Positions 1 to 64,000 of a DNA stretch of 64,000 nucleotides are shown piece by piece. This DNA comes from Picochlorum sp. 'celeri' (Eukaryota > Chlorophyta > Trebouxiophyceae): assembly GCA_010909725.1 (NCBI GenBank), contig JAACMV010000014.1, positions 806,001 to 870,000 of the forward strand, given 5' to 3'. Both the position numbers and the translations under genes were made by a program. A model generated the notes under the pieces. The model searched no databases. It worked only from the letters and a program-made list of their open reading frames with translations, and had not been told where the DNA came from. Positions within the stretch are counted from its first letter, which is position 1; each line of letters starts with the position of its first letter.

Positions 1-3000
1 TTCGTCTGCTGTCATGGTTCCTGTCAATGGTTCCTGCATAGCCTTCTTCAATCTCTCCCGCACTGCAGCTGCTTCCCCTGGCCAATCTTCAATATCACTT
101 TGTATAACAATGTGCTCGTCATGCTGCCAAAGGCGGTGCATGCCAATTTCACCATCATCGTATGCCACAGTGTGTTCTGTGCTGACCGGATCATACCAGC
201 AAATGACGCCCTCAAAGTACTCCTCATCTCCATCCCACCACACAGCGATTCGAGCGCCAATAGCATCTTCGCCACAGATGGCTAATTGCGCTCCGGCATG
301 ACCACCAAGGGCTGATGCTGTCATTCTCTGTGTCAAACAATCATGTCTCTTTGTACCCTGCATAAGAATCAAACAAGATGTGGAGATGCATGTTGGATGT
401 ACTCAAGGTGAAGAAACACACGTACCACATAGGCATTCATACATGTTCTGCAACGACCGCATCTGCTCTTGAGGTCAACGCTGGCTGCAGCGGCGGCAGC
501 TCTAGTCTGTCGCATCTTGTCAGTGGTGAGGCTGCTCTTCTTTTGTTTGACTTTGTGTGATTCGAGAGCATCCTGTAGTGCATGGCCGAGGAGATCGCTG
601 TACTTGAATTTAGTATCTTTGATAGCAGCATGGGCCTCCTTTTCGTACTTTGTTCTGTGCTTGTCCCATGGAAGCAGGTCATCTGGGTGGTGCCACTGCC
701 ATTTCCCCGTGTTGATTGGGAAATACAAAACCAGTACCCTTCTGTGGTCAGAGCCTTCAAACTCTTTGGTGTCCCACATGCCATCGAGGGATGTGATTGA
801 CGCTTTTTTCTGCTCAGGAGTCAGTTTGCTCAATGCATCTTTTGGCAGAGTTCTGCCAAGAGGCATGTGTTGAGGGTCCAGGACTTCTCCTGGCCAATAT
901 ATACCAGATAAAGGCTCTGGAACCCATACAATCGCTCCAACCATTTCTGAATCGTCAATGATGCCCTTGAGTCTCGTAATTTCAACAGACTACAGAAAGA
1001 GAGTGTTGCATGTGAACACACAAATAGGAATACAATGATTACATCGCCATGTGCCACCACATACCTTTGACGCGATATCCATACTCGAACCAGACATTCT
1101 TCTGAGAATATCATTCGATATATCCCATCCTTTTTCTCTGAGACGATGAATGTATCCAGCCTTTTCCTCAGCAGAAGGACTCCGGCCAACTTGCTCAATG
1201 AAGTCATCCAATGCTTGATATGGGCATGTGATTGGATATTCAGAGGATCGCTTCACAGCAAAGGCACCGATGCCATTCTGCCACCACGCAGATTTTGGCC
1301 ATGTTGATTTCTCCCATGTTTGCACCTTTTCTTTCGAAGAGCTTTGAACGAGTCCTTTCTTGATCTTTTTGACCATTCTCGCCTGAAAGGCATCCTTGTA
1401 CACTTTCAAATCGCTTCCTGAATCAGAACCAGAGACTACAGGCCTCTCCCCTGTTTTCATCGGAGTAATAGCACTTGGCTCTGAGTCTGATGCGGGTCCC
1501 TTGTCTTGACTGGTATGGGACGATTTGGAAGAACTCTTCTCAGCACCTGGACTCTCAGTGTGGGTGCTTGTTTTGCCTGCAAGCTGCTCCACATCTTGAA
1601 TTTCATGCAATTTTGCTCTCTTAAACTCTCGACTCTCTTTAAAAGAAAATATTGCAGCCTCTTGAATCTCGTCAGCAGTAATAAAGCTCCAAACGTTTGG
1701 TCTCCTGCAAATCACACACATGCATCAGCGTCAGTCATCTTGATAGATGCAATGCAAATTTCACCATATTCTGCACACGTACTTTAAAACCCGTTGTTTT
1801 GGTTCAGGTACGCCTTCTTTGAGAAGATGATGTATAGCATGATTACCCTGAGCGAGCCTGTATTTATGCGCATATGGATGCATGAGACGCTCTCCAAGCC
1901 ACCGAGCAACATGTACCGTAACAGCATTCCCCAACAATTGCCACCTCCTCGACGAATGCGTTTCCAAATCCATCTCTTTGTACGGAACTCTTTTGTGAGC
2001 AGAAATACCTTCTGCAGTCACAGGGAAACACGGCTTTGTCCAACCTTCTGGGAAGCCTTGCAATCTCTCTGCATCCTCCACACGCAACATGCCAGTTCGC
2101 CCATCCGCCAGGAGCAACAAGATACGATCATTCGCCGTCGTAAAAGAAGGTATGATATCTTCACCGGGTCTACATCTGCATTGGATAGTATATTATGATA
2201 TGTCAAACGTGCATACGAGGCAGTAACAATGATGAACACATACATGGCACATCCCAGATCGATAGCAAACGATACATTCTCATTAGAATTCCGCTGCTTT
2301 AACGTCTCAAGATGACACTCGTAGCATTCATTGTCCTCAAACAATTGCTTGCAAGATCCTGGGCATGATTGCATGCCTTGAGAGAGAAGCACATCTCTGG
2401 CATCCCCATGCATTGATGCCACAATGAAAACACGCCTCCGCCTCATGGGCACACCAAACCCTGCATACACACCATGGATTTGCATGTATCAGCACTCTCT
2501 CCTTGTCTAGTATATAGTATTTCCTAGGAACGCACCTGCTGACGAAACAACCCGATATGCCCACGATGAAAACCCAAGATCCATCAACTGCTGCACCACA
2601 AAAGCAATGGCTGGAGGCTGATCATCCGCTCGATCCAACAATGCTTCCACCTACACACATCATTATCTATTTATTGTACATGATGATAGCCAGATGATAT
2701 ACTACTACTGAAGCATCTCTCTCACATGGTATATATACACACAAGGCCAACATACATTTTCCAAAAGGACCCAATTCACTGGTCTGTTTCTGTCCTTGGC
2801 AACTTGCAACAAACGAAACACATGCCTCACCAAGCCAGTACTCTGCATTATTATTGTCATCATGATTATTATCGCATGATATATATATATATATATATAT
2901 ACATCAAGTTGGGGAACAGCGTACCTGGCCATCCAATCCTCTTCGCAAACCAGCCCTGGACACATCAATACATGGAAACCCAGCCACCAACAGCTCCGTA

Positions 3001-3511
3001 TCCTGCACACATTCATCTTCGAAATCTTAGTACGAGAAAACAAAATTAAGAAAAAAAGGGTCACATACATCTGGCAAAGCTTCCACAGCACACACATCAT
3101 GAGACAACCGAACACCAGGAAAATGCTCCTTCAACACCTACACCACACAACAAACATGCAACTCGTACCAGCACATCCATCATGAACGAGTACAACCATA
3201 CCTGCCTCGCTCCTGGATCACTCTCACAGAGAAAAATCAGTTCATGACCAGCCTGCAAGACACACATACACCCGTCAATCCACAACCATGCACACAGAGC
3301 ATTCAAATCATGGTTACAGTTATACCCGACCAGCGCCGCGTGCACTCCACCACTGCGCAGTCTTTCTCCTACTATTTCCCCAACCATAAAAACCCATTTC
3401 AAATAACAGACTGTACGTGATTCATATGCAGCCAAACCACACCGTGACTCATACCTGTTCAAGCCCATAATCCAATCCTCCAGCACCAGAGAACAAACTA
3501 GCGAATTTCAT
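1..3511 (-). CDS. DNA (cytosine-5) methyltransferase with C-terminal PWWP, CXXC-like and Tudor-like modules (3' end outside window)
   Basis: Eleven exons rebuilt by eye, all in phase: 3455-3511, 3202-3252, 3069-3137, 2925-3002, 2756-2842, 2536-2650, 2244-2460, 1783-2175, 1065-1704, 426-989 and 1-357. They give at least 876 residues with no stop before the window edge. The ATG at 3511 follows an in-frame TAG. Catalytic motifs appear in canonical order: motif I FSGAGGLDYG (residues 7-16), motif IV with Cys70 in GFPCIDVS, ENV at 113-115 (split by an intron), motif VIII PMRRRRVF (~157-164), LQGFPEGW (~263) and LLGNAV (~300). After a charged linker come a PWWP-like domain (~584-680), a short CXXC-type cluster (CGRC, CRTC, ~745) and a Tudor-like fold (~775-830, IAVWWDG...YDDGE). 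It should methylate cytosine in nuclear DNA and read chromatin. PCI replaces the usual PCQ. There is no BAH or chromodomain, so it is not a MET1 or CMT type. The subfamily (possibly an algal DNMT clade) is uncertain. Confidence 0.9.
2879..2901. repeat. (AT)n microsatellite inside a methyltransferase intron
   Basis: About eleven uninterrupted AT units lie inside intron 4 (2843-2924) of the cytosine methyltransferase gene, 20-odd bases from the splice donor. Simple slippage repeat; no function is implied. Confidence 0.95.
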
Positions 3512-4155
3512 CTCAAATAGTATCGACTACACCGAAGAAAAGTATATAGATATCAGGTGATTTAGAATGTATATTCACGCATGCATGGTGACGTCACCTG
3601 AGCAAGGCAATGTTGCGTCGGAGTTCTGACGGGTCTGGAGGCGCTCTTTCTTCCCTCCGAAAGCCCTTGTTGATTGGAACCATGCCTGCCCAGGACTCCT
3701 TCTTCCTTGCCTCCACATGTGCTCATCCGATGCATGATCCAGTGTGTCTGATGGTAGTAGTCATAGAGAGAATCAGTCGTCCTTCTTCTTCTTCCTCCCG
3801 TGACAGGCACAATTAATTAGTGTGGGTTACAGCCTGGGAGTTCCCGGCACATGTACACTTGGACCAAAAGAGTGGTCTGAATGAACAACAGCCCATCTGG
3901 ATGCCAAGGCTACAAGGTTGCCATGAAGAAGGGGTATACCAATTTTAGAATTCAATTTAATCCTATACGTACGTATAACAGGGCATTCTGGGGGCTGTCA
4001 TTGCACCATTCTCGGCTCCAGGACGTGAACGAGTTTGGTCCAATTTGCTTCGGTATACATGGTCATTCGATAGATATCCTTGCACTAGATATTTTGATCT
4101 GGGTATAGGAGACGTCTGCTGTGAAATACCCCCAGGGATTGAGCACAGAAGGGCG
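3512..4155. promoter_or_regulatory. divergent intergenic region, methyltransferase / otubain
   Basis: A 644 bp spacer lies between two start codons pointing away from each other, so it must hold both promoters. Reading frames here are short and lack ATG support. The otubain reading frame stays open upstream to about 4045 but has no ATG before 4156. A possible 5' UTR splice acceptor (gagcacag) precedes the ATG. No clear TATA box was recognised. Confidence 0.4.
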
Positions 4156-5863
4156 ATGCATAGCCAGACGACGCCAGGTCGACAGGGCGAAGAGCCCTTG
4201 AGTGATGAGGCTTTGGAAGCGATGCGAGGTCCACATATTCATCATGGACCAGCGACATCGGTCCAGCAGGACGATAGCATTGCGGCTCAGGTGAATGAGC
4301 ATAACAATGCAGAGCGTTACAGCACGGTGGATGACGTTCTCGAGAGTCGACAGCGATTTTCTGCCACAAACATCAACATTCCATTCCAACAACGACATCA
4401 GCAGCAATTTTCATCGGTGTCGGTGTCTGAGGGAGTGGCTTCTGCCGGACATCCCCCAGTGGCAAGTTTGGATCGCATGGGGGAGTTTGTACCAGGTGAG
4501 GTTGGGCTGACTGGGATGTATGAGGGTGAAGCAACTGGGATGTATGACCCAGTGGGGGCGTGGCATGGGTATGTGGATGCGGATACGAATACGCCGACAG
4601 CCACGCATGGTCCACGGCCTGGGGGGCAGCAGGAGCAGCAGGATGGGTGTGGGGCGGCGAGTCCGATGGATGTGCAGGATTTTCGGAAAAGTCGGGATGG
4701 GTCTGTTTTTGGTGCCTGTAGCGATTTGGAGGGGAATGAGAGCACTGGGCAGCAGATGGATGGGGTTGGTGCGCAGCAAGTATCATCTGAAATGGCCATG
4801 GTGACTGGGTTGAGCGATGGGGAGAACGAGCAGCCGTCGTTGGCTGGGCATCGTCGAAACACAACGGAACCTACAGATAGTAACATTGGATGTATTGGTC
4901 TGGGGAATACTGGTGGGGAGGGGGAGATTCAGGCCAGTGCATCATTTAAAGATAGGCCATCAGATGCTGATATTATAGCATGGGAGAATCAGATACGCGA
5001 GGGGGAGGCGAATAAATCCCCTCTGATTGGAAACAAATGCTCAATTGATACTCTGTGGGATGAGTATGCGGCGGGGAATGAGGTTTTCAAGGCCAAGATC
5101 ACCACTCTTGCATCGACATATGGGTCAATCAGGAGGTCTCGAGGGGATGGAAACTGCTTCTTTCGATCGTTTATATTCTCATATCTGGAATACTTGGTAC
5201 AGACGAAGGATGAAGAAGAGAAGAATCGAATGACGTCTACACTGACGTCGTTGCGCACGTTACTCGTGAAGGCTGGATATGAAGAGTTGGTTCTTGAGGG
5301 GCCAATGGAGCTCCTGCTTGGCATGCTGTCTTCGATTCAAGATTCCTCGAATCCTCTTAGCATTGAAACACTGGAAAACAATATGAGGTCTGAAGAAATT
5401 TCGAACTATATTGTATTTTTATTGCGAATCATAACGAGTGCGGAAGTGAAAGACAAGGCAAACTTTTTTGCCCCATTCATCATGGTATGTTTGCTTGATG
5501 TGCCCTTGTTGTACTGGACACCCACGTCAATAGCCATATTTGTTTCGTGTGCAGGGGCTGACAGATATGGCTGTTGATGAATTTTGCTCCAAATGTATTG
5601 ATCCCATGGGCGAAGAGAGCGAACATGTTCAGGTTGTTGCTCTCACCAATGCATTACGAGTGCCCATCCGTGTGGTGTACTTGGACAGGTCCACCATGGC
5701 CGCGAGTGGCGCATCGAATACATGCGATTCATCAGACAGCCCTCTGAGTGCTGATACGCACGACTTTATCCCTGAAGGATGTTCTGTTTCGGCGGATGAC
5801 ATACGAGTGCACCTGTTGTATCGCCCAGGCCACTATGATATTTTGTACAAGAAGAATTTCTAA
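4156..5863 (+). CDS. otubain-type (peptidase C65) deubiquitinase with long N-terminal extension
   Basis: Two exons, 4156-5484 and 5555-5863, joined in phase across a 70 nt gtatg...tgcag intron, encode 545 residues. The C-terminal half carries the OTU/otubain signature: GDGNCFFRSF with the catalytic Cys334, and a C-terminal RPGHYDILY with His536. Otubains are about 270 residues and remove ubiquitin chains, preferentially Lys48-linked in OTUB1. Here residues 1 to ~290 are an extra low-complexity, Gln/Gly/Asp-rich region with no recognised domain, probably disordered. The start at 4156 is the first ATG of the frame. The catalytic residues look intact, so I expect an active cysteine protease of the nucleus or cytosol. 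OTUB1-like is more likely than OTUB2-like, but this is not resolved. Confidence 0.85.
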
Positions 5864-14033: not shown

Positions 14034-14993
14034 TTACCATAAGAAAGCAAGCAGTTGCAATCCCAGGGCACCAACAGCCATGGTTGGCAAGAGCATTGGT
14101 GATCCAGACGATGGTGCAGACTCTTTAATGCCGTCTAATGTCTGAAGCTTGAACGGAATACAATCAACGTTAGCAAACAAGCCTGTGGAAACATCTTCAG
14201 GATATTCATACATATGCCATGCATTGTTGTTGCTGTCTCTGATGATGAAACTGAAGCAATCATCACCCACCAGGTATGGGACATGAGTCTCATTCGTTGT
14301 CAGTGTGACATTCTCCCATGCTGACCAACCGTCGGGAAAAACGACGGAATCCAGGTTGTTTTTCCAGTCCTCATCAGTTGCCATCTCTGATTCTGATGTC
14401 TGGAGGGCCCACTTACCTCCGTAGTTGTCTGTGACTGAGGCAAACCATGGAGGAATATAATTGTAATCTTTGCACTGTTTGGTCATGACCACCACGACAG
14501 TTCCAGGAGCGGCATCCACGTCTGATACACCACCAGATGTTCCAGAACTTCCTGAAGAAGGGTATGTACCAGAACACAGTAACTCTGCAATGATTGTCCA
14601 CTGATCAGTTTCAGAAATCTCTGGGATCACGACATTGTAGACACAATTTTCTGTGCAGTTGGCAGGAGCCATAGGAGATCTTGAGTCACAAGTTCCGTTA
14701 TTCCCAGGAGCAGAGTAATCCGTCGCTGACAATGCATATGGAGCAGGCAAAGGGTCAGGCAAATCAGAAGCTGGGGTCTTGCTGTAGTACTGTGTCGAGT
14801 TGGCCTGGTTGGTGATTTCCGTCCAGGTCGCCCCCCTGTCACCGTAACTGCAGTTCACCGCAATTGGACCACAAATGGAATCTTTGCAATTCAGCAGCTC
14901 AATAATATCAATCAACTCTTCTGATTCGGCGCGAACACCACGTCCGATATGGTACACCAGTACCACAACTGTAGCAAGATGTCGGAGGTACAT
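14034..14993 (-). CDS. secreted, probably GPI-anchored surface protein of unknown function
   Basis: A single exon encodes 319 residues. The N-terminus has a signal peptide (basic MYLRH, then hydrophobic TVVVLVY, with likely cleavage after GVRA). The mature part is Cys- and Ser/Thr-rich with several N-x-S/T sequons (NCS, NST, NGT, NCT, NVT, NET) and no recognised domain. The C-terminus is a small-residue segment (SAPSSGSP) followed by ~20 hydrophobic residues ending in FLW-stop with no cytoplasmic tail, typical of a GPI-attachment signal. I infer an extracellular, N-glycosylated surface protein. The sequence at the stop (TATGgtaagag) would also make a good splice donor, so an alternative C-terminus is possible. 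Confidence 0.65.
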   Translation of the reverse strand: MYLRHLATVVVLVYHIGRGVRAESEELIDIIELLNCKDSICGPIAVNCSYGDRGATWTEITNQANSTQYYSKTPASDLPDPLPAPYALSATDYSAPGNNGTCDSRSPMAPANCTENCVYNVVIPEISETDQWTIIAELLCSGTYPSSGSSGTSGGVSDVDAAPGTVVVVMTKQCKDYNYIPPWFASVTDNYGGKWALQTSESEMATDEDWKNNLDSVVFPDGWSAWENVTLTTNETHVPYLVGDDCFSFIIRDSNNNAWHMYEYPEDVSTGLFANVDCIPFKLQTLDGIKESAPSSGSPMLLPTMAVGALGLQLLAFLW

Positions 14994-15648
14994 CGCTTTT
15001 TTCCAGGCAAAAATGTACTAGTACTTTTTTAATGATAACAAGTTGATCTGTTCGGCGAATGCCAAATTCTATAGCCTTGGACCATTGGTCTTTTGCAGGC
15101 CTCGCGTCGCTCGCCTGTCTCGGTCGGTCGTCCGTAGGGCTCATTCGGTCGCCGTGTCGGTTGGATGGAACACGTAGCGTAATAGGTTGCTAACCGTATG
15201 GGTGCGTAGCGTAATTGAGGAACCCTAATATCTCATTAGAAGTGCATCACCTTTGATCCGGCATGGCATGGATTTGATGTGCCATGCATTGATTCTTTCA
15301 ATAGGTGCAGAATGTACATACATGCGATGCTATTACATCAACCTTATTCGGAAGTATGTAGTTGCTGGTCTCGTAGGGTAGGGGGATGTCGGTAGGAGAA
15401 GTCAACTGTCTGACACAGATCGATGGTACCACGGTGGCCACCGGTACCGGTGGTTCCGAAACCATGCATGGTTCCGGATCTGGATCGATCCGGGGATGAT
15501 GCACGGCTGGATTGTCCGTACACCCGCCGCCAGAAAAATAAGGCCAAAAGCAAGGATACAACGGTCAGAATACAATTATTTTGCTAAAGTGATCGAAAAA
15601 AGAACGCCTTTTTCTTGTTTCTTTCAATATCCACACCAATCGGCTTGT
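14994..15648. promoter_or_regulatory. divergent intergenic region with palindromes and direct repeats
   Basis: A 655 bp spacer lies between the GPI-protein and PLAC8-DNase II starts. It holds CGGT-rich sequence near 15118-15160, a direct repeat CGTAGCGTAAT at 15173-15183 and 15204-15214, a hairpin (GCATGGCA / TGCCATGC, 15261-15287), and the palindrome cluster listed separately. It also includes 153 bp that stay open in frame upstream of the chosen PLAC8-DNase II start. Confidence 0.5.
15433..15493. repeat. cluster of overlapping perfect palindromes
   Basis: Within 61 bp there are GGTGGCCACC (15433-15442), CCACCGGTACCGGTGG (15438-15453), AACCATGCATGGTT (15460-15473) and GGATCGATCC (15482-15491). 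An inverted repeat CCGGATC...GATCCGG spans 15474-15493. It lies just upstream of the first ATG of the PLAC8-DNase II frame, so in a promoter or 5' UTR. It could be a set of dimeric factor sites or a cruciform/hairpin element. Confidence 0.8.
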
Positions 15649-17436
15649 ATGGAACCTCACGTTGTGGACCCCCAAAGTGGTCAGCTTGTCCGCCTCAATT
15701 CTGGCAGGGGACAGCAGATATATCAAATTTCCCTCTCTCAAAATTCACAAGCATCAACACCATCACGCGCAGCATCGCTTCAGTGGGGAGCCGGAGCTGC
15801 GGAATGGTCCTCTTCCTGTGGTGATTGCTGTGACGATTGTGGGATCTGCTGCAAAGGGTTCTGGTGCCCGTGTTGTCTGCACGGTGATATCAAAGAGCAT
15901 GTGGATGGTGTAAGGCCTGAAAGTGGAACGTATACTGTGCTCTGCTGCATTCAGAGCTGGTGCTGTCTGCCATGCTTCAACTGCACAACATGCTGCTCTG
16001 GCAAGCCTCTTCGGTCCAAACTGAGGAGAATGTATGGGCTTTCAAAATCAGGCGGATGCTGTGGAAGTGACTGCTGCACTCATTATTGTTGTCACGCATG
16101 TGGTCAGTGCCAGGAAGCAAGGGAGATTTGGTTCAGGGGTGAGGCATTGAAAACAACTTTGGCTTCTACAACACCTGCAGCAACAACTCCACCTCCCGTT
16201 ATCATGATGGAATCGTCACAAAAAAAAGAAGAGAAAAAAGAAGAAAAACTATCAGTAGGATACGAAGTTGCATTTAAGAATGGGACAGGAGAAGGAAAAG
16301 ACGGAAGCACTGGTCTGGAAAGTCAAATCTTCATCAATGGTTCACCAGGTTGGCAATTCGAACAGGATATCAACGACTGGATCAAATCAAAACTTGCAAA
16401 TAATACTTGGGATGGAGTTTTGGCATATAATGATCAGAGTGATAAAACGTGTAAGGGCCATGCAAAAGGAATTGTTGTTTGGAACAAGCAGTATGTTGGC
16501 TGGCTTATTCACTCAGTTCCTCATTGGCCTTCGTTTTTCATCAGAAAGGCAGAAGACAACTCAATTTACTCCTCCAAGGGTACAAGTACAAAGATAGAGG
16601 GAACTGTGAACGTATTACCAAGCCTTCCAGAGAGCTGCAAGAGAGAAGGCCAATCCTTCATATGGACATTACTTGACAGGAGAAAAAGCTATCGCAAAGG
16701 GAGCATTAAAAACGGACATGGTATTGTGGACGAAGATACACCAGTTTCTGATGTGCTTGAAGAAATTTACAAGGTTGTCAATGCCATTGGAGCATGTGTC
16801 GTGACAGAATTTTTCAGTGAGAATGCAGAGAAGGAATTGAATTTGTACCATCATGATGCTCAGTTGAATCCTTCCACTGATATGACTCTGCTGTCGCTGT
16901 CCCCTGATACAATCCCTTCAGAAAGTCATCTGGTGCATGTGTTTAAGACGGGACACTGGGTTCCAGAAATCGATCCCTCATTGATCGATAAACACGTTGA
17001 GAAGAAGAGCATCACAAATGCTCCCGACTTTTACAGGCATGGGCTGCTTGAAGGATTTGGCCCAATGGTGACGAAAACACACATTGCCAAAACAAATGAC
17101 GAAAGGCGTGATGATCCAAAAATATGCAACGGAAAGGATCATCTATACTATTGTGACGCTTTTGTCCAGAAGGCTGACACATCCTGTTTTCAGGTGGTCC
17201 AAAACCAAGGAAAACAACACGAGTTGCATGGGGAAAACGACCATTCGAAAATCGCCTACTCATCTCAAACAAATGACGGACTTAAGTGGGTATTTGTCGG
17301 AGATTTGAACAGAAACACCTCCCAGGGATTGCGAGCTGGTGGTGGCATCCTGGTCAAGGATCAAATGTTGTGGACCCTGTTTCAGAAGAGACTTGCCAAC
17401 ATACAGCCCAAACCTGGTCTTGAGTATGACTTCTAA
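15649..17436 (+). CDS. fusion protein: PLAC8 Cys-rich domain plus DNase II
   Basis: A single exon encodes 595 residues from the ATG at 15649. The frame is open to an earlier ATG at 15496, but the extra 51 residues look like translated UTR. Residues ~55-165 form a PLAC8/cell-number-regulator domain (CCLHGDI, CCLPC, LRSKLRRMYGL, CQEAREIW). A Lys/Glu-rich linker follows (~195-205). The rest (~205-595) is a DNase II domain with both HxK motifs of the PLD-like active site, GHAKG (His271, Lys273) and DHSKI (His532, Lys534). It also has HSVPHWPSF and VGDLNRNTSQG...GGG. DNase II is an acid endonuclease of lysosomes or phagosomes. PLAC8 proteins associate with membranes and affect metal transport or growth. 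No signal peptide is seen, so how the nuclease reaches an acidic compartment is unclear. Confidence 0.9.
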   Translation: MEPHVVDPQSGQLVRLNSGRGQQIYQISLSQNSQASTPSRAASLQWGAGAAEWSSSCGDCCDDCGICCKGFWCPCCLHGDIKEHVDGVRPESGTYTVLCCIQSWCCLPCFNCTTCCSGKPLRSKLRRMYGLSKSGGCCGSDCCTHYCCHACGQCQEAREIWFRGEALKTTLASTTPAATTPPPVIMMESSQKKEEKKEEKLSVGYEVAFKNGTGEGKDGSTGLESQIFINGSPGWQFEQDINDWIKSKLANNTWDGVLAYNDQSDKTCKGHAKGIVVWNKQYVGWLIHSVPHWPSFFIRKAEDNSIYSSKGTSTKIEGTVNVLPSLPESCKREGQSFIWTLLDRRKSYRKGSIKNGHGIVDEDTPVSDVLEEIYKVVNAIGACVVTEFFSENAEKELNLYHHDAQLNPSTDMTLLSLSPDTIPSESHLVHVFKTGHWVPEIDPSLIDKHVEKKSITNAPDFYRHGLLEGFGPMVTKTHIAKTNDERRDDPKICNGKDHLYYCDAFVQKADTSCFQVVQNQGKQHELHGENDHSKIAYSSQTNDGLKWVFVGDLNRNTSQGLRAGGGILVKDQMLWTLFQKRLANIQPKPGLEYDF

Positions 17437-17807
17437 TCAGATCAGCAGAAAATACTATCAAAAACTTACAGACAATCAGAGGCCCAGATGTATTGCTCAC
17501 TGTATATGCACATAAGCATTTGTTGTCCTACCAAGGCAGAATTTTTCAAAAATTTTCAAAATTTCAAAATGTAAAACTCCGTATTACAATACTTTTAGTT
17601 TAGATGTCCCGACTCTAATCCCCCCATCAACCCCGTCACGTGACGGATCATTCGAATGAATTCATTTACGTCGACTCAGGTATCAACATCTCCATCACCA
17701 TACGCGTTGAGGACAAAATTGAACACATCCAGTATCTTTTCAATTTACTTTAATCGATCGTTGCATCGAGTTCTTCCCATTCCCATCAGAAGACAGCAAC
17801 GTCGATC
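17437..17807. other. intergenic, PLAC8-DNase II to SMT1
   Basis: A 371 bp spacer between same-direction genes. It contains an A/T-rich run of aaaatttt-like repeats near 17548-17572 and the palindrome CGTCACGTGACG (17635-17646), a G-box core (CACGTG) about 165 bp before the sterol methyltransferase ATG. Confidence 0.4.
17635..17646. promoter_or_regulatory. G-box-like palindrome upstream of SMT1
   Basis: CGTCACGTGACG is a perfect 12 bp palindrome with a CACGTG core, the bZIP/bHLH binding site of plants. It lies ~162 bp upstream of the SMT1 ATG. A regulatory role is inferred. Confidence 0.4.
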
Positions 17808-42749: not shown

Positions 42750-44401
42750 ATGCTGACCACGGTTGGCCGTAAATCGGTGTCTTGGCTGAGCCAACGCCGA
42801 GGGTTTGTGGCGAGTGCAGCTGCTGCGGTAGACGCTGTTGTCGACAAGGCAAACTCTCCATTTCTGAGATTTGGAAACCCTGTTCCTACAGATGTTGGTA
42901 TGAACCAGTTTTTGCCCCATCTGCCAGAGACCAAGGTGCGTGTAGATTGTGTTCGTGCTTTGATGGTCGAATTGACTCACGTCCGTGTATTGACTCGGGT
43001 TGGGATTGATGGTAAATATAGGTGACACATCTGTCGAATGGAATGCGGGTGGTGAGCGAACAGGTCCCAGGGGCAACCACATCGACTGTGGGAGTTTGGA
43101 TTGATGCTGGAAGTCGATATGAGACTGATACGACGAATGGTACTGCTCACTTCTTGGAGCATATGGCATTCAAGGGGACTGAAAAGAGAAGTGTGAAGGA
43201 TTTGGAGGTTGAGATCGAGAATATTGGCGGGCATTTGAATGCGTATACATCCAGGGAGCAGACCTGTTATTTTGCCAAAGTGCAGAATGGGCATGTCGGG
43301 CAAGCTGTGGATATCCTTTCTGATATCCTTCAGAATTCAAAATTAGAAGAAAGGGCTATCGAAAGGGAACGAGAGGTGATTTTGAGAGAGATGCAGGAAA
43401 TTGAGGGTATGCCTGAAGAGGTGGTGTTTGATCACTTGCATGCCACTGCATTCCAACACAGTCCTCTGGGACGCACGATTCTTGGTCCAGCTGAGAATGT
43501 GAGGGGTATTACACGTGAGAATTTGGTGGATTACATCTCAAAGAATTACACAGCTGACCGAATGGTGATCGCTGCTGCTGGAGGGGTGGATCATGATACT
43601 CTTGTCAAGGCAGCAGAAAAGCACTTTTCAAAATTACCAGAAAAGGGTGTATCTACAGCCGAGTTGGTGAAGAATGAGCCAGCAGTGTTTACAGGAAGTG
43701 AAGTGAGATTGAGGGATCCAGATCAGCCTCTTGTGCATCTTGCCATTGCTTTCCAAGGAGCATCATGGAGTGATCCTGACTCCATCCCGCTCATGGTGAT
43801 GCAGACAATGCTGGGCACCTGGGACAAGCATTCCGCTGCTGGGAGACACACTGGGTCCAAACTTGCCGAATTGATCGCGACAAACAATTTGGCAAATTCC
43901 ATGATGGCATTCAATACAAACTATCATGACACTGGGCTCTTTGGTGTGTATGCCACAGCTGACCCAAAGACGAGCAATTTGGAGGATTTATGCTGGGGTA
44001 TTATGCGTCATACGTCTGGAATGTGCTACAATGTATCAGAGTCGGACGTGGCAAGGGCTAAAAATCAGCTCAAGGCATCCATTTTGTACTCCCAGGATGG
44101 AACCACGGGTGCTGCAGAAGATTTGGGCAGAAGTATGCTTGTATACAACCGTCGTATCCCTCGTGCTGAATTGTTTGCTCGTATTGATGCCGTGGACGCA
44201 ACAACAATCAAGGAAATTGCACAGAGGTTTATCCTGGACCAAGACATTGCAGTAGCAACTCTAGGAAACACACAATGTACGAGTCATTTCAATAGTCGAA
44301 TCAATGAACCCATGTGCTAACATTCATGTATTCTTTTTGCTAATGCAGTTATGCCTGACTACACGTGGCTTCGAAGAAGAACATACTGGCTGCGATACTA
44401 G
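42750..44401 (+). CDS. PMPCB: mitochondrial processing peptidase beta subunit
   Basis: Exons 42750-42935, 43022-44276 and 44349-44401 encode 497 residues. The third exon is needed to reach the conserved C-terminus MPDYTWLRRRTYWLRY. The N-terminal ~50 residues are an amphipathic, Arg/Ser/Ala-rich mitochondrial presequence. The zinc-binding inverzincin motif HFLEH is at 105-109 (His105, Glu108, His109), and the distal Glu lies ~75 residues later in the EREREVILREMQEIE helix, so this is the catalytic beta subunit, not alpha. It removes matrix-targeting presequences; in plants it is part of complex III. The second intron (72 nt) was found from the conserved tail. Confidence 0.95.
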
Positions 44402-44749
44402 GGTGGTACTCGTATTGGTGCTCCTTTCCCATGATGGCTCAGGAGTACACTGTAGCAGAAAATGGGGTGGACGTGTCATGAAATCTGATTTGTTTCTTTT
44501 CTAACGATGTGTAATAACAATTTGTCCACTCCGTGGAATTGACATGTCGCTCTGGCCTTCCATGTCATGGAAGCAATATGTTGCAGGAGCAGAGATGTGC
44601 CTGCAGTGACTCGAATCCCACAAAACAAAAAGACATTTTCAGGCTGCTCGCACATACTCTGAATTTCAAAAAAGATTTTCAAATATGGATTCATCGAAGC
44701 TAGAATAATTCAAGCTCCTCGTGGTTAGAAAGAAAGGGTCGATTTGGAA
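44402..44749. other. intergenic, MPP beta to APC4
   Basis: A 348 bp spacer between same-direction genes. No open frame of note and no recognised motif; it must contain the APC4 promoter. Confidence 0.35.
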
Positions 44750-47017
44750 ATGAGCGATGTTGAAGAAGAGCCCCAAGGCGGGTCTTTCGGGGTTTTAGAT
44801 GAAAAGAGTTTATCATCAAAAGTGATAATAAGCCAATGGTGCACCACGATGGATATTGTGGTGCTCGTAACGGAGAATGGCCAGTTGCAGTTATTCAGAC
44901 TCAACTGGGAACGGTTGTGGAGTAAACAGCCAGAGTCTCCTATTACGTGTGTTCAATGGAGACCTGATGGGAAACAACTCGCGTATGGTGACGAAAATGG
45001 TGATGTATTTATCTTGTCTGCTGAGGACGGATCGGTCGTGGAGCATCGGAAAGTGATTGGCGATGGGAGGAAGGCATCTGCTCTGTGTTGGGTTCAGTAT
45101 GACATCTCACCGCACTATTCACATGTTGGTGCCCCGCTCGGGTATCGGGCTCCGCAACTTTTACATTCAAAGAGTATTGAAGAGGAGTTTAATAAATCCT
45201 CTGAAGAATCCCGATACTCGAATCCAATTTTATTGGATGGGAATGGACAATCTATCAGATCAAGCATGCTCACCCTTGTGTGTGCTGTTGATAATGTGGG
45301 GAATGTTGTTTTGTGTGGAGAAGGACTGCTTCCGTTACTTACGTTTCACATTGACGGGTTTGATGAGAAGGCGACGCATGTGTCGATGGCCATGTCATCC
45401 AATGCAGAACAAATTTCCGTCTCATGGAGAGATGCACATGGCAGTCTGTGTCTGTCTACATTTGATATCTCTGCCGTGCCTCGCCAGGCAGTCACACTAC
45501 ACACTGTAGGACTCATATTTTCAGATACGTTGAGGGATATTGAGATGCTATACAAAATTATCCAAAATATCAAGGATGATGTGGCTTCTGTTGACGAGAG
45601 TAGGGACAGTCATATGAGTGTTCTTCGGGATATGATTGGAGGGTTTCGAGACGGTGAAAAAGACATTTATGATTTAATGATACGGGGATATTATTCTTTG
45701 GAACTGAAGAATTTTGTTGCCAAGGAGTCAGACCTGAAAGAGGCCGCGAAAGGAGTCGATGTTGCAATATCAAGAGTATGTAATGACATTGTACGGTATC
45801 TGCAGCCTTGCCTGGAGAGGATATCGTTTCGATTAGGTGAGCTCAGGGGATATGCTTCGAGTCCAATGTCCAAGCCATATTTAGGTCTAAAAGCGTGGGA
45901 GGTTGGAAAATGTGAAAAAAGAATTCTCAACCTTTTATTGCTGTCAGAGCACCTGAGAGAAGTTGCCCTGAAATCTGCCCGGTCGCATAGGAAATTGTAC
46001 ACATATTTCGCGATGCTGAGTGCTCGTGATTCGGGTGACAAATACCCAAGTCTATCAAAGGCTTCCATGAGTGAGATTGAAGATTTAATCACGTCTGGAT
46101 ATTTCAAGGAGGATTTGCAATCGATGCTTGGTGCCATGGTAGGGGAGCATGACAAGGATGACCAGGAGCTTTTGGCGTGCATTTTTAAGTCACAATGTGA
46201 AATGAAAGAAGCTTCTATGAATAGCATGGGAAATATTCATTCTTCACTGCAAGAGAGCGATGCCAATGAGCAAGAGGAGGATGCCATGTTTGAGCGTGTG
46301 TTGCATGACCTTGAGAAATGGCTTGATGGGGATGAGTCTCTCAATTACGTGGATAGGCTTATCCAGGAGTCAACAGAGGAATCTGTGCCTTATGGGATAT
46401 ATGGTGTAGACTGCTTCAAAGCCATGTTTCTTCACATAATATCCAGGCCATGTGACCAGCTCTCCTCCTTTGTGAAAATGATTCATCAGTGGACATTGAT
46501 GCCTACTATCGGCTCCAAAGATTGTCTTTCTATATTATACGATCAAGAAGATAAGATTTTGGTGACATTCACGTGTTTCGAGTCATCATCTTTCTGCGAG
46601 ATACAGATCAGGGATCCTACTCACATGACCATTATTGGTGGCAGTCTTCCAGGGGAATCCATCACCGAATGTTTGGACTATAAAGGCGATTCTTTACTCA
46701 TTGCGGCGGTTGTAGATGGGGGCTCTAACCTCTATATGATTCCGAAAACCCATTGTCCATATTCTCGTACAGCTAGCACATGGACGGATGAAATAGCACA
46801 TGCCCTCCAGCAGGAGATTGAACAGTCCCCCATTGACCATACAGTGTGCAGGACACTGCATGATCCTTCCAAACAGATGATACGACCATTTGCTTCCAGT
46901 TCCTCGAGAGGAGTTGCCCTGGCAATATTCAAACCTAATCATGCTGTGATATATGACCTGGAGGACGATGGCCTCGAAGAAGATGAGATGGAGGAGAGTT
47001 ACGAAGATGACGAATGA
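44750..47017 (+). CDS. APC4: anaphase-promoting complex subunit 4
   Basis: A single exon encodes 755 residues, similar to plant and human APC4 (~760-810). The N-terminus has the Apc4 WD40-like blades, including ISQWCTTMDIVVLVTENGQLQLFRLNWERLW and ITCVQWRPDGKQLAYGDENG. The middle helical APC4-long domain (~260-470) follows (FRDGEKDIYDLMIRGYYSLELKNF). The C-terminal propeller part and a very acidic tail (EDDGLEEDEMEESYEDDE) close the protein. APC4 is a scaffold of the APC/C ubiquitin ligase that drives mitotic exit. The stop is 41 bp from the NIPA-like stop. Confidence 0.9.
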   Translation: MSDVEEEPQGGSFGVLDEKSLSSKVIISQWCTTMDIVVLVTENGQLQLFRLNWERLWSKQPESPITCVQWRPDGKQLAYGDENGDVFILSAEDGSVVEHRKVIGDGRKASALCWVQYDISPHYSHVGAPLGYRAPQLLHSKSIEEEFNKSSEESRYSNPILLDGNGQSIRSSMLTLVCAVDNVGNVVLCGEGLLPLLTFHIDGFDEKATHVSMAMSSNAEQISVSWRDAHGSLCLSTFDISAVPRQAVTLHTVGLIFSDTLRDIEMLYKIIQNIKDDVASVDESRDSHMSVLRDMIGGFRDGEKDIYDLMIRGYYSLELKNFVAKESDLKEAAKGVDVAISRVCNDIVRYLQPCLERISFRLGELRGYASSPMSKPYLGLKAWEVGKCEKRILNLLLLSEHLREVALKSARSHRKLYTYFAMLSARDSGDKYPSLSKASMSEIEDLITSGYFKEDLQSMLGAMVGEHDKDDQELLACIFKSQCEMKEASMNSMGNIHSSLQESDANEQEEDAMFERVLHDLEKWLDGDESLNYVDRLIQESTEESVPYGIYGVDCFKAMFLHIISRPCDQLSSFVKMIHQWTLMPTIGSKDCLSILYDQEDKILVTFTCFESSSFCEIQIRDPTHMTIIGGSLPGESITECLDYKGDSLLIAAVVDGGSNLYMIPKTHCPYSRTASTWTDEIAHALQQEIEQSPIDHTVCRTLHDPSKQMIRPFASSSSRGVALAIFKPNHAVIYDLEDDGLEEDEMEESYEDDE

Positions 47018-47058
47018 CAATATGTACATGAGCAAATAAATAAATAATTGTGCAACCA

Positions 47059-48513
47059 TTAGCCCATCAGTGTATTTGAGTTTTTCCGTGATGACAACAA
47101 ACTCACTTCCTGCTGCAGTAAATCTGACAAAGAGTTTGGCTTTGTTACCTCCCGTAATGCTGGACTATTCAACCGGTCTATTGACGATACTTTTTGAAGA
47201 GTCTCTTGCATCTCTAGATCAAGATCGCCGCTATTCTTAGGCTGAATCGAGGACTGCTGCTGCATTCGATGTTCATTGAAATACCCAGACAGCCCCATGG
47301 CCACTGCCCCAAATATTGCTAAAACCAGCCCCAACGTCAGAAGAACGAGCGATCGATGTGGTAAATTCTTCATTTCATCAAAATAAATCATCCCTTGCAG
47401 CACACTCATTCCCAACCAAAACGCCTGCATCAACGGCATGATCAACGTTGCTGGATACAACTTCAATCCTTTATCACTCTGTCGAATCCAGAAACCCGCA
47501 GATATGATGAATGACATCACGATCAACCATGTATACCAATCATACAAAGAATATGGCATGGCTCCAGCTATATACGTCAGAGACTTGCTAAAAAGCACAG
47601 ACCATGCCCCAACAAAAGAAGACACAGCAGAGAACAGCAGTGCAGCTGTAAACATTCTAAGCGTGCTAGGATCCCCAGGATCTTCAATCAAATCAGTCTC
47701 ATTCGACCCAGGAATATCCCAAATTGCAGTACCTCCTGGGAACAACTCCTTCCCATCCACAAAGAATTGCTCTCGACTCTTCCTCCGAAGCCTCTGCGCA
47801 GCACTCCTCTGCGCTGCTTCGGCAACCCGCCGTCTATGATGGATCCATCTCCAAAGAATATGAAGCATGGCCATTGTACATCCTAGTCCTAACAAAAATT
47901 TCTTCATTTCTGGTGTCGACCACTGCCCTCTCAATTCCAGCGGGGTAAACCCAACCTCTGGCGGCCCATTCATCAATATAAATACATTTCCCACCAACAC
48001 AACTCCCACCCCAATAGCAGTAGAAATCTCTGGCTGAATACCAAGCAGCTGCTTCGAAGCAACTGGAATCACCACAAACTGCAATGATCCCAACCCAGAC
48101 AACACAGTCTGTGACGCAAATCTCATGCTCACAAACCTCATCAAATTCCCAATACCAAACAAGGTCCATCCCAACAGAGAATACATCTTGGCACCCATGT
48201 ACTGTCTCTTCCATCTCCCATCAGGCCTCTTCCATCGAGGCCCATTCACACTGTGACTCCCATGGAATCCATTCATCCCACCTGGTCCTCCCCCAGACAC
48301 TGGCGGGGACACAAGACTACCACTCAAACTCCTTCCATGGTGATACTGACCACCACCATGCCCCTGAAGAGTCCATGAATTTCCAGCCATGGACGATTCC
48401 ACAATGCAGTGAGACACTTTGACCACCGTCTGCCCATACACAATGAGCAACGACCCAGCCACGTGCATCATCGCCCCCACACCATTCATATTAATATGCA
48501 TTGGCCCAAACAT
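47059..48513 (-). CDS. NIPA/DUF803-like membrane transporter (probable magnesium transporter)
   Basis: A single exon encodes 484 residues. About eight or nine hydrophobic helices are spread over ~8-30, 110-195 and 285-415 (e.g. GWTLFGIGNLMRFVSMRF, TALLFSAVSSFVGAWSVLFSKSL, LIMPLMQAFWLGMSVLQGM). The order and spacing resemble the NIPA (DUF803) family. A Gly/His/Ser-rich loop lies at ~35-95 and an Arg-rich one (RRRVAEAAQRSAAQRLRRKSRE) at ~230-250. C-terminal residues from ~430 are hydrophilic. NIPA proteins move Mg2+ at plasma and endosomal membranes. The closer NIPA-like/DUF803 subfamily is uncertain. Confidence 0.8.
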   Translation of the reverse strand: MFGPMHINMNGVGAMMHVAGSLLIVYGQTVVKVSHCIVESSMAGNSWTLQGHGGGQYHHGRSLSGSLVSPPVSGGGPGGMNGFHGSHSVNGPRWKRPDGRWKRQYMGAKMYSLLGWTLFGIGNLMRFVSMRFASQTVLSGLGSLQFVVIPVASKQLLGIQPEISTAIGVGVVLVGNVFILMNGPPEVGFTPLELRGQWSTPEMKKFLLGLGCTMAMLHILWRWIHHRRRVAEAAQRSAAQRLRRKSREQFFVDGKELFPGGTAIWDIPGSNETDLIEDPGDPSTLRMFTAALLFSAVSSFVGAWSVLFSKSLTYIAGAMPYSLYDWYTWLIVMSFIISAGFWIRQSDKGLKLYPATLIMPLMQAFWLGMSVLQGMIYFDEMKNLPHRSLVLLTLGLVLAIFGAVAMGLSGYFNEHRMQQQSSIQPKNSGDLDLEMQETLQKVSSIDRLNSPALREVTKPNSLSDLLQQEVSLLSSRKNSNTLMG

Positions 48514-58944: not shown

Positions 58945-61184
58945 ATGTCAGCGTCAATGGCTACCCAATCCATGACTGGTGCGTTTGCATGGTTCTAGAA
59001 TGTCGTCTTGTCTGAGATGCGCATTCACGCGTGTATTCGGTGTTGATGGGGGTGGGATGGGGTACATTTTGGATCTAGAGAGATATCAAGAGACGTCATG
59101 TGTGGGGGGATGGGTGCGATACCGGTGTAGTCGGGGGCGACGTGCCTGGGGTAGTGGGGTTGTGCTGTGGTTGACAGCCTGCGTGTTGCGATGGGGTCAT
59201 GCATTGATTGGAGAGATAGTACATTGTACATGATGTAATTTTTTGGTTGTTTTTTGGGGAAGGTTGATCGGAATGGGTGGGTTTAGCGTGGTGGTAGAGT
59301 TTGGGGGTCCACCGCCGGGAGGAGGAGGACGGGGTGCTTCTGGAAGCATGGTGGATGGATCCATCAAACCACCAATGTGGTGCTGTGGAAAGGCTCCGAG
59401 TGCTGTATCTGTTGTTGGAGAAGATTGTTACATATTTTTGACATCATCTGGTGTGCGTGTGTGTAGGTTTGAACAGCGTACGCAAGCTGTCACAGCAGCA
59501 GCGACGTGCTGCCTCCATGGGCAGAGGGCGCTCCATGGTTGTGACCCGCGCCGCCAAGGAACTTCATTTCAATGCCAATGGAGAGGCTTTGAAGAAGATG
59601 CAGAGTGGTGTGGACAAGTTGGCATCCGTTGTGGGTGTCACCTTGGGACCAAAGGGACGTAATGTTGTGCTCGAGTCCAAGTATGGATCTCCAAAGATTG
59701 TCAATGATGGAGTGACTGTGGCAAAGGAGGTTGAGTTGGAAGATCAGGTTGAGAATATTGGAGCCATGTTGGTGAGACAGGCTGCATCGAAGACGAATGA
59801 TTTGGCTGGAGATGGAACAACAACAGCCACCATCTTGTCTGCTGCTATGATTGCCGAGGGAATGAAGATTGTCATGTCTGGAGTCAATCCAGTGCAGTTG
59901 ATTAGAGGTATGGAGAAGACTGTTGATTTCCTTGTGGGTGAGTTGCAGAAGATTTCCACGGATGTGTCTGATGAGGCTCTCAAGGATGTGGCCACTGTGT
60001 CTGCTGGAGGAAATGAAAAGGTTGGTGAGCTCATTCAGAGTGCTATGGCTCGAGTTGGACGCCAAGGAGTTGTGACAATGGAGGAGTCCAAGACTGCTGA
60101 GGATACATTGACTGTTGTGGAGGGAATGCAGTTTGACAGGGGCTACATCTCACCATACTTTGTGACTGACCCAGAGAGGATGGTTGCCGAGTACGAGAAC
60201 TGCAAGATTTTGATGGTAGACAAGAAGATTTCTACTGCCCGTGATATGATTGGAATCTTGGAAGGTGCTATTCGTTCCGGAAGCCCTCTTTTGATTATGG
60301 CAGAAGACATTGAGCAGGAGGCTTTGGCAACCCTTGTTGTCAACAAGCTTCGTGGAACTCTTAAAGTGTGCGCTGTCAAGGCTCCAGGATTCGGAGAGAG
60401 AAAGACATCCTATCTTGAAGATATTGCTATTTTGACCGGTGGGCAGATGGTCAAGGAAGAGCTTGGCATCAACTTGGAGACCTGTGATGAGAGCGTTCTC
60501 GGAACTGCTGCCAAGGTGGTGGTGAGCAAGGAATCCATCACTATTGTTGGTGATGGCTCCTCTCAGGCTGATGTAGAGGCTCGTGTTAAGCAGATCAAGA
60601 ATATTGTAGCCAACACAGAGCAGGAGTATGAGAAGGAGAAGTTGAATGAGCGTATTGCTCGTCTCTCTGGAGGTGTTGCTGTTATTCAGGTTGGTGCTCA
60701 GACAGAGACAGAGCTGAAGGAAAAGAAACTTCGAGTGGAGGATGCCCTTAATGCCACCAAGGCTGCTGTTGAGGAGGGTATTGTCACTGGAGGAGGATGC
60801 ACTCTCCTTCGTTTGTCAGGAAAGGTTGACTCCTTCAAGGACACATTGGTGAATGATGAGCAGAAGATGGGTGCAGATGTGGTGAAGCGTGCTCTGCCAT
60901 ACTCTTTGAAGCTTATTGCTTCTAATGCAGGAGATAACGGATCTGTAGTCATGCAGAAGATTTTGGAGAACTCATCTGATAGCTTTGGATATAATGCTGC
61001 CAATGGTGAGTTCTGTGACCTCCTGGAAGCTGGAATCATTGACCCAACAAAGGTCGTTAGATGTGCTTTGGAGAACTCTGCATCAGTTGCTCGTACATTC
61101 TTGATGTCTGATGTTGTGGTCACTGCTATCCCAGAGCCAGAGGCTGCTCAGCAGGCAGGAATGGACGCCATGGGAGGATACTAA
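58945..61184 (+). CDS. CPN60B: chloroplast chaperonin 60 subunit beta
   Basis: Exon 1 is 58945-58978 ([12 protein letters not shown]) and exon 2 is 59467-61184. The 488 nt intron starts gtgcgt and ends gtgtgtag; 583 residues. The transit peptide is Ser/Arg/Gln-rich up to ~40. The mature chain begins [18 protein letters not shown] and contains GroEL signatures [34 protein letters not shown] and [13 protein letters not shown] sequence (here [13 protein letters not shown]). It ends with a family-typical short tail (MGGY). Sequence details ([42 protein letters not shown]) place it with plant CPN60 beta, not alpha or mitochondrial HSP60. It folds Rubisco and other plastid proteins. Confidence 0.97.
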
Positions 61185-61268
61185 ACACTCTTTTTAACAT
61201 ATCATTTAGCTCAAATCAGAATGCAGCACCATTACATTCGTATATCCATGTAAAACATTTTTATACAA

Positions 61269-64000
61269 CTAGTAATCAAGGTCAAGATCAAATTCAGGAA
61301 GATCATCTTGCTCAGGAGGGGCCGATGCGACAGGGATTGGTGCAGTGGTTGGCAGACCAAGGCTCTCAATACCAGATCGCATGTAGTCGACAAGGCCAAT
61401 TCCTAGTTCCACAACGATAGGAACCTTCTTCGCTCCATGAGAATGGTAGATCGATGCATTTTCACTAATCTGCTCGATATCAGCCATGAATTCTTCGACT
61501 GATTTATATCTCCCTGCATTGGCTTTTTTTCTAATGTCCTGCAGACAAATCTCCTTTGACCTGGGTACAAAATCATTGTAGTCTTTGTAATGAGACTTCA
61601 ACACGGGGCTGACAAAAGTGAAATAGTATGTAGTAAGGCCTTTTTTATAAAGTGGCTCCCCTTCTTTCTTGGCTTTATCAAGAAGAGATATAATGCCCTT
61701 GTTGAGCTCATCCATGGGACCAGAGCCTCTCTTTTTGGTCTTTGCCTTCCGTGCCTCAGCCTCATCATATTCCTCATCACCATCCAAATCGAGTGATACA
61801 TCGTACTCCGTGTACTTTTGCGACGTGCGGGGCGCTCTTCTGCTACTTGACCTTCTCGGTGCGATTCCAAATCCTTCATCCATGGAATCTTCATCATCCT
61901 CCAAATCACCATATTGCTCTCTTCGTTTTGTCGGTCGTGTCCGCTTCGATTTTCTCTTACTACTTCTTGATGGCTTACTGCCTTCATAGTACTCTTGATC
62001 ATCCTCGTAAATATCAGCAGTAAAATCCTCATCCTGGCCCTCATTGTCCTCATACCCAGTTAAGAACTCAGTGTACTGGGCAAATTTTGCCCTTGACTTT
62101 CTGCTGCCAAGTTCGGCTGGCTCAGGCTCGAGTTCTTCCAGACTAAAATCAGGTACGTCTATTACTGGTTCAACAGGTTCTTGCTTCTTCTTTGGTTTGG
62201 GCTGGCTCTTCTTGACGGGTTTGGGTTTGGACGGCTTTGGCTTTTTTGGCTCCTTCTTCCCATGCAAGGCTTCAAGCTCTTCTGGAGCTGCTTGGAACGC
62301 TCCTTCCTTTAATTCCATCTCAGGAGCATATTCCTCCTCCTCCTCTTCTTCTTCAATCAGTTCCTCAGAGGCCATATCACTCCATTCGTCCTCCCCAAGT
62401 TCATCATCTCCATAAGCTTTTACTTTCCTTGCTCTGCGTGATGGCCGACTGGCTGATATTGTTTGCTCCATAAAGACATCATCTCGGAGTTCTTCATACT
62501 CATACGATTTTCTTCCACGACCTCTACCTCTGCCTGGCTTCTTCAGAGCTCCACCTCTGCTCCCTCTGCCACCCCGGCTGCCTCTGCCGCCTCGACTACC
62601 TCTGCCACCTCTGCTCCCTCGTCCTCTTGAAAATCCCTTACTTTTTGCGGCGGCATATCCAAGTTTCTTGATCCTACCTTCTATATGCGGCTTCCATTGA
62701 ACACTTCGAGTGTGAAATCCGAACGCGCTCATCGACCCATCTTCTTTGGGATACAAGGAAGCAAGCATGTGTGGGCGATCCCTCCCACCATATGTAACCT
62801 CCTTGATTTTCACAAATGATCCATCTGCCTGCAGCTCAAATATTTCTCTACGAATCCTTCGTGTTTTACCTGGAACCAGTTTGACTCCTTCGAGCCCAGT
62901 TGTCTGGTCTGCCGCTGCTTCAGCTGCCTTATCAGGTTCAGCTTCATTTTGGGCAGGTCCATCTATCAGACCGGCTGCTCTCATTTCCTCTAGATGTTTC
63001 GCCTCATCTTGCGCCGAAGGAGAATCTTCTCTCTTACTCTTGCTCTTCTTCTTGTCAGCTTCATCCTCGCTTTCATCTTCGAGTTCAGCTTGTAATTCGG
63101 CTTCCAGATCATCCTGTGCGCCTAAATCATCACCTACTGTATCATTCAAAAAGTTAACTTGCTTTTTAAATATTTCTTGAGCTCTCTCCCTGTAACGCTT
63201 CTGTAGCTCCAGTAAAGTCGTTTTTTGTTGTCGAACAAATTTACCCACGCCTAAAACAGCCCCATCTGCAGCAGAGGCATTCGCAAGCTGCCTTACAAGG
63301 TCAATCCTGGTCCAGCGAGCAAGGGGATCAATCTCTGATTCGTCAAGCCCGAATTCCATCAACTTTTTCTTTGCCTGCTGTGTTGTCATCCTACGAAGAT
63401 CTGCATCTGTACCTTGGACTTTACTAGCTTTTGTTTTGCTAGTTTGTTTTGAGTCGTCAAACCCAGAACTTTTGTGCCTCACGTCCCTGATAAAAGAGTA
63501 TCCAGTGCCTCTTCCAGTCGGATCACCTGGTCCATGAAGTCTCATTGTTGCTCTTCCTTCCCTAAAGGATGTCACAAATGCATCTGATAAAGACCAAGCC
63601 GCAGTTTGTAGAGCATGCTCCACAGCCTTGGCTGCCATCTGGATATCAGGGTCATCAGGGAGCATCTCTGCCGCCAATCTAAGTTTCTCAGGCACCACCC
63701 CGCCGAACGCATCATTGTTGTAGATTCCGCGCTGTTTCAGTCGGATCTGAGCCGCAAATGTCGCTTCTGTGACACAAGCATCTTCCGGAGATACCATCTT
63801 TTTCAACTCTGCCTCTGTTGGAATTCGTGCACCATGTGCAAGGGTATAAAATTCATCATGCCCATTCTTGGATACATACTTCAGATTGCACTCCTTGAAA
63901 AACATCCTGATCATATTGATTGGACGTCCTTTAAACATTTGAGAAGTTTTCAACAGGCTCACACATGGGATCTCCTCCGTGAATCCTCTGCGTTCCAACG
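61269..64000 (-). CDS. TAF1: TFIID subunit TAF1, C-terminal part (5' end outside window)
   Basis: The frame is open from the right edge to the TAG at 61269, so about 910 residues are visible and the N-terminus is missing. The beginning belongs to the DUF3591/histone-acetyltransferase-like core of TAF1 (CVSLLKTSQMFKGRPINMIRMFF, DEFYTLAHGARIPTEAEL). Next are an acidic middle and an Arg/Gly-rich tandem block (GSRGGR repeats, ~455-480 of the visible part). Long basic-acidic stretches follow, and a C-terminal bromodomain (last ~130 residues, LYKKGLTTYYFTFVSPVLK ... SVEEFMADIEQISENASIYH). TAF1 organises TFIID at core promoters. The bromodomain has His where Asn is expected. Confidence 0.93.
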   Translation of the reverse strand, partial: LERRGFTEEIPCVSLLKTSQMFKGRPINMIRMFFKECNLKYVSKNGHDEFYTLAHGARIPTEAELKKMVSPEDACVTEATFAAQIRLKQRGIYNNDAFGGVVPEKLRLAAEMLPDDPDIQMAAKAVEHALQTAAWSLSDAFVTSFREGRATMRLHGPGDPTGRGTGYSFIRDVRHKSSGFDDSKQTSKTKASKVQGTDADLRRMTTQQAKKKLMEFGLDESEIDPLARWTRIDLVRQLANASAADGAVLGVGKFVRQQKTTLLELQKRYRERAQEIFKKQVNFLNDTVGDDLGAQDDLEAELQAELEDESEDEADKKKSKSKREDSPSAQDEAKHLEEMRAAGLIDGPAQNEAEPDKAAEAAADQTTGLEGVKLVPGKTRRIRREIFELQADGSFVKIKEVTYGGRDRPHMLASLYPKEDGSMSAFGFHTRSVQWKPHIEGRIKKLGYAAAKSKGFSRGRGSRGGRGSRGGRGSRGGRGSRGGALKKPGRGRGRGRKSYEYEELRDDVFMEQTISASRPSRRARKVKAYGDDELGEDEWSDMASEELIEEEEEEEEYAPEMELKEGAFQAAPEELEALHGKKEPKKPKPSKPKPVKKSQPKPKKKQEPVEPVIDVPDFSLEELEPEPAELGSRKSRAKFAQYTEFLTGYEDNEGQDEDFTADIYEDDQEYYEGSKPSRSSKRKSKRTRPTKRREQYGDLEDDEDSMDEGFGIAPRRSSSRRAPRTSQKYTEYDVSLDLDGDEEYDEAEARKAKTKKRGSGPMDELNKGIISLLDKAKKEGEPLYKKGLTTYYFTFVSPVLKSHYKDYNDFVPRSKEICLQDIRKKANAGRYKSVEEFMADIEQISENASIYHSHGAKKVPIVVELGIGLVDYMRSGIESLGLPTTAPIPVASAPPEQDDLPEFDLDLDY
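62551..62630. repeat. minisatellite-like coding repeat (GSRGGR units) in TAF1
   Basis: Roughly four tandem 18 bp units encode GSRGGR within the TAF1 gene. The bases vary between units at wobble positions, so the repeat has had time to diverge or is under protein-level selection. Confidence 0.8.

Follow-up and report, generated by a model that had tools for sequence, protein, structure and literature searches.

A PLAC8-DNase II fusion gene in Picochlorum celeri: a candidate membrane-tethered, cytosol-facing nuclease

DNase II (PF03265) is usually viewed as a lysosomal clean-up enzyme, and structures 5i3e and 5unb (Burkholderia thailandensis) belong to this family. Plant PLAC8 (PF04749) proteins include the FWL/CNR and PCR proteins, for which PMC12794220 gives CCXXXXCPC or CLXXXXCPC as the motif. 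We analysed a 64-kb stretch of the genome of the tiny marine green alga Picochlorum celeri (the window; positions 806001-870000 of contig C14, G+C 0.43-0.50 in 2-kb bins), in which one gene appears to encode both, i.e. a PLAC8 domain and a linker, followed at the C-terminus by a DNase II domain that has a phospholipase D (PLD)-like fold and keeps both HxK motifs intact. The architecture is a new combination of known parts, and the literature that we searched holds no report of a PLAC8-DNase II fusion or of an acylated DNase II. The nuclease differs from the B. thailandensis proteins in standing behind PLAC8, in its insertions and in that no signal peptide is seen, and the fusion group keeps only one of the DNase II domain cysteines. 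The PLAC8 domain is like those of the plant FWL/CNR and PCR proteins in matching the whole profile, in its CCXXXXCPC motif, in its richness in cysteine (25 within residues 46-165) and, by eye, in a Q..RE near the domain end. Unlike them, it has a less hydrophobic centre (residues 97-115, at a mean Kyte-Doolittle (KD) hydropathy of 1.31 the most hydrophobic 19-residue window of the whole protein), its second motif continues with IW instead of LK, and it bears a C-terminal enzyme.

The frame runs uninterrupted for 595 codons plus the stop and requires no intron. Both Pfam profiles match above their cut-offs, PLAC8 at 60.0 bits (cut-off 34.4; profile positions 1-101 of 101) and DNase_II at 75.8 bits (cut-off 23) in two stretches. 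These results bear out an initial annotation, made from the sequence alone, which had described a one-frame fusion of PLAC8 and a full-length DNase II in a green alga and had placed the HxK motifs exactly where we find them. The DNase II part, at 395 residues, is of full length and has insertions (whole proteins from a related environmental family measure 259-406 residues, median 297), and in the predicted structure it has the DNase II fold. The other haplotype (contig C18) encodes the same fusion, with 599 residues from the residue-1 Met and 650 codons from an upstream ATG; the fusion is therefore not a chance product. The annotation had also proposed looking for proteins with both domains: a full-length search of ∼5.8 billion proteins gave six matches, five of which have both Pfam domains (55-92% identity); one of the five, P0005, lacks the first ∼115 residues and hence the first part of PLAC8. 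Identity to P0003 is 101/120 in PLAC8, 20/34 in the linker and 211/385 in the DNase II part. The linker is short and Lys/Glu-rich, and its TPPPVxMMES is retained in P0003 and partially in the other fusion homologues. In a quick-method tree (gene model P0007 left out) the seven fusion rows form one clade with support of 100, on a very long branch (3.12) whose placement is unsettled, with long branches meeting. From these comparisons we are highly confident that, as judged at the DNA level, the fusion is real, as one gene and one protein.

As the initial annotation held, topology is an open matter, with three layouts possible (cytosol, surface or vacuole lumen). We propose that PLAC8 would anchor the enzyme to a membrane so that its catalytic domain lies on the cytosolic side, a layout that the environmental relatives appear to achieve by acylation, through a Met-Gly-Cys motif at the N-terminus. 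Together the two HxK motifs would build one active site, and DNA would be cleaved through a covalent phosphohistidine, without metal, as is the mechanism of the PLD superfamily. The most likely role, which is the weakest step, would be to clear DNA entering the cytosol, chiefly that of incoming large DNA viruses; these are plausible targets because PMC11633385 describes infection of Picochlorum by Phycodnaviridae as hypothesised and finds signatures of Nucleocytoviricota in genomes of this genus. We lean towards the cytosol-facing tether because the relatives show an acylation-type motif, rare signal-peptide-like starts and no conserved cysteines. The whole chain, i.e. a membrane-tethered, cytosol-facing DNase II that clears foreign or viral DNA, is put forward tentatively.

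The closest relatives found for the enzyme part appear to be this little-studied environmental family rather than the secreted DNase II of animals, of which one was compared. The fusion-domain profile scored the family at 57.7-103.8 bits, including 59.9 bits for P0039, which has no N-terminal motif. A fish DNase II reached 36.1 bits, and one from a bacterial bin 32.4. The relatives came from our own searches, which reach only proteins with shared exact words. In the first domain search MG(x0-2)C lay near the N-terminus in 26 of 34 non-fusion matches; in a larger set, again as raw counts, 102 of 125 proteins started with MG(x0-3)C and 111 carried it within 45 residues. Serine at position 6, which fits the myristoylation-site consensus, was present in 43 of the 102 starters. 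Only 2/125 (P0008 and P0032) had signal-peptide-like starts at least as hydrophobic as that of the fish protein (KD 1.92), and 10/125 reached 1.5. The animal DNase II with which the initial annotation had drawn its comparison is thus replaced by nearer relatives mostly without such starts. The disulfide pattern is not conserved in the family, the sole catalytic-domain column with at least 30% cysteine being the residue between H and K. The family therefore appears to face the cytosol, held at the membrane by N-terminal Gly/Cys acylation. The fusion protein differs from it: the environmental proteins are 259-406 residues long and PLAC8 is absent from the members scanned, whereas the fusion starts with MEPHVV, or with MMHGW if read from the upstream ATG, and has no MGxC. 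The MGxC group (our label), which comprises P0006 and most of P0008-P0133, with some members encoded on contigs of 100-457 kb, may prove to be the larger finding.

Across the window the haplotypes are separated by a mean of 9.8 substitutions per kb, and divergence peaks in the 3' half of the DNase II domain and in the 3' flank (14, 21, 13 and 11 substitutions in successive 250-base bins). Positions 17001-17600 hold 41 substitutions in 600 bases, the maximum of 634 windows (mean 5.9). In the linker and DNase II part the nonsynonymous divergence (dN) was 0.040 and the synonymous divergence (dS) 0.047, a dN/dS near 0.9; residues 1-165 are identical in protein between haplotypes, their single change being synonymous (dN 0). 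The 18 neighbouring ATG-to-stop frames had dN of at most 0.0064 even at dS up to 0.081, three of them without any difference, so a high mutation rate alone is not the cause. The extension of the peak into the 3' flank indicates that a haplotype of old or introgressed origin contributes to the pattern. At the 33 residues that differ between haplotypes, P0001 sides with the window at 21 and with C18 at 8 (12 and 10 for P0002), which is at most suggestive of trans-species alleles.

Several points weigh against a cytosol-facing nuclease that acts on viral DNA. The PLAC8 domain is mostly below 50 in predicted local distance difference test score, and the tether therefore falls outside what the structural model shows. 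MGxC is present in every one of the 18 second-query rows, and the motif counts are raw, not set against a background rate. The comparison rows outside the family were one animal and one bacterial-bin protein, with slime-mould, Trichomonas and other protist DNase II left out. The high dN/dS between the two haplotypes would equally fit relaxed constraint or introgression, and two sequences cannot separate diversifying selection from relaxed constraint. The EukProt Picre1 gene model P0007 (256 residues; Picre1 is presumably P. renovo) starts at the linker Met and lacks PLAC8. DNase II enzymes prefer acid pH, whereas the cytosol is near neutral; the DNase II Sjda is reported in PMC4349608 to be active over a broad pH range, with highest activity at acid pH. 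Finally, tomato FW2.2 and its kin are reported in PMC12794220 to be anchored in the outer leaflet, an arrangement that would put the nuclease outside the cell.

This last point leads to the first alternative, in which PLAC8 sits in the outer leaflet and DNase II digests extracellular DNA, either for phosphate and nucleosides or as protection. DNA in sea water is a phosphorus source, and the DNase part has four NxS/T sequons. Outer-leaflet anchoring, reported for FW2.2, is also predicted in PMC12794220 for three tomato FWL proteins without transmembrane helices. Against this, hydropathy reveals no signal peptide, as the initial annotation had noted (no 12-residue stretch among the first 40 residues has a mean KD above 0.2, i.e. 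the N-terminus is not hydrophobic), although FW2.2-type proteins may not need one. In addition, all seven fusion rows together keep none of the four sequons and one of the six domain cysteines (502), and the related environmental family looks cytosol-facing. A surface nuclease is therefore unlikely in our view.

The second alternative is an acid nuclease that PLAC8 anchors within a lytic compartment and that serves digestion or turnover, much as the initial annotation had suggested with its nuclease on a vacuole or food-vacuole membrane of a phagotrophic (mixotrophic) alga. Animal DNase II enzymes prefer acid pH. This acid preference of characterised DNase II, e.g. Sjda (PMC4349608), was the sole point that we found for the vacuole lumen. 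Judged by hydropathy, the fusion protein has no lysosomal, animal-type signal peptide; nor was a lumenal signature seen in it, and its nearest relatives found are not of the secreted animal type. Nothing that we found indicates an acidic lumen. The phagotrophic setting also went unsupported: Picochlorum is a walled coccoid autotroph, and this alga is not known to show any sign of phagotrophy. We consider a vacuolar acid DNase distinctly unlikely.

We give still less credence to the third alternative, that the protein is not a DNase and its PLD-like fold acts on membrane lipid phosphates, an activity established or presumed for vaccinia F13 and phospholipases D. In sequence F13 stands far from DNase II (5% identity). 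Separate transcripts or an annotation-type artefact, with internal starts at Met186/187 that would yield free DNase II, are very improbable: P0007 begins at the linker Met and the MM is conserved, but that model is also cut at its 3' end, the frame is open on both haplotypes and in the homologues, the linker is conserved, and its 35 codons leave little space for a promoter and untranslated regions.

If the cytosol-facing reading is true, DNase II would have a second life at cytosolic membranes, as a membrane-tethered form in a primary alga and in a large environmental group that seems to be tethered by acylation. Cas9 editing is described for P. celeri in PMC10808502 and PMC12301381, so topology and role are directly testable.

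A viral origin of the environmental group was looked for and not shown. Five scans of viral_contigs, whose giant-virus content was not gauged by a control, found no relative, nor did a comparison of P0033 with phage records, and in BFVD the sole match below E 0.001 was fowlpox FPV032, a 232-residue DNase II without PLAC8. For a viral source are two UniRef names ('viral metagenome'; P0033 and P0073), contigs of up to 456,861 bases, and the fact that among the matches listed (40 + 120 rows) P0007 is the only one with a EukProt source. A scan of prokaryotes gave one relative (L024), which we took as a distant row. The fullest scenario is that Picochlorum acquired, from large DNA viruses or a lineage shared with them, a membrane-acylated DNase II that faces the cytosol, replaced the acyl anchor by a PLAC8 domain of its own and used the enzyme against viral DNA, the nuclease part diversifying in an arms race while the anchor stayed fixed; as a whole we regard this as speculative and improbable. 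Base composition was uninformative as a sign of transfer: G+C at third codon positions of the DNase II part is 0.435 vs a mean of 0.442 in the 18 neighbouring frames, and its total G+C (0.435) lies under the neighbours' range of 0.448-0.497.

Features of the fusion locus (positions within the window)
Feature	Position	Strand	Basis
PLAC8-DNase II fusion coding sequence, 595 aa	15649..17436	+	frame, Pfam, other haplotype, P0001-P0004, part of P0005
Upstream in-frame ATG extension, 51 codons	15496..15648	+	sequence, homologue starts
PLAC8 domain, Cys-rich (residues 53-159)	15805..16125	+	Pfam PF04749, 60 bits
CCKGFWCPC (residues 67-75), CCXXXXCPC motif	15847..15873	+	sequence
Linker (residues 166-200), conserved PPPVxMME	16144..16248	+	alignment, identities
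DNase II domain, PLD-like fold (residues 202-595)	16252..17433	+	Pfam, predicted structure
First HxK, H271-A-K273 (GHAKG)	16459..16467	+	sequence; H and K in 128/128 aligned relatives
Second HxK, H532-S-K534 (DHSK)	17242..17250	+	sequence; H in 127/128 aligned relatives, K in 128/128
Haplotype-divergence peak, 3' half of DNase II domain + 3' flank	16751..17750		59 substitutions in this kb

The open frame extends 5' to 15382, with an extra in-frame ATG at 15496. The upstream extension is probably a 5' leader rather than coding, because the first residue listed is the residue-1 Met for P0003 and residue 6 for P0002 and P0004; the listed P0001 takes the extension in. Among the relatives, P0119 alone of 128 has Asn at the second catalytic His and is possibly an inactive member.

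Genome-wide (27,412,692 bases, 30 contigs) one DNase II locus was found, present once per haplotype on C14 and C18. The contigs are apparently paired as haplotypes (C14/C18, C2/C22, C10/C16 and C11/C19), and the published phased diploid genome is described in PMC7225527 as 27.43 Mbp in two sets of 15 scaffolds with 46% G+C. There are four more PLAC8 loci, each apparently a haplotype pair; one of them (L014 on C19, with its copy L013 on C11) encodes another PLAC8 protein with long additional N- and C-terminal parts, in frames of 409 and 410 codons.

Elsewhere in the window, positions 14034-14993 (- strand) encode a 319-residue protein that by eye looks secreted, with a hydrophobic C-terminus; its dS is 0.081, with one amino acid change. 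Five frames at 43043-48513 and 59517-63938 are nearly identical between haplotypes (three with no difference, two with two each), which looks like loss of heterozygosity. The prokaryotic relative, encoded at positions 1489-4317 of a contig binned as Akkermansia, has 942 residues; by eye, a long N-terminal part accompanies its DNase II-like region, and its tail is Lys/Ala/Pro-rich and histone H1-like.
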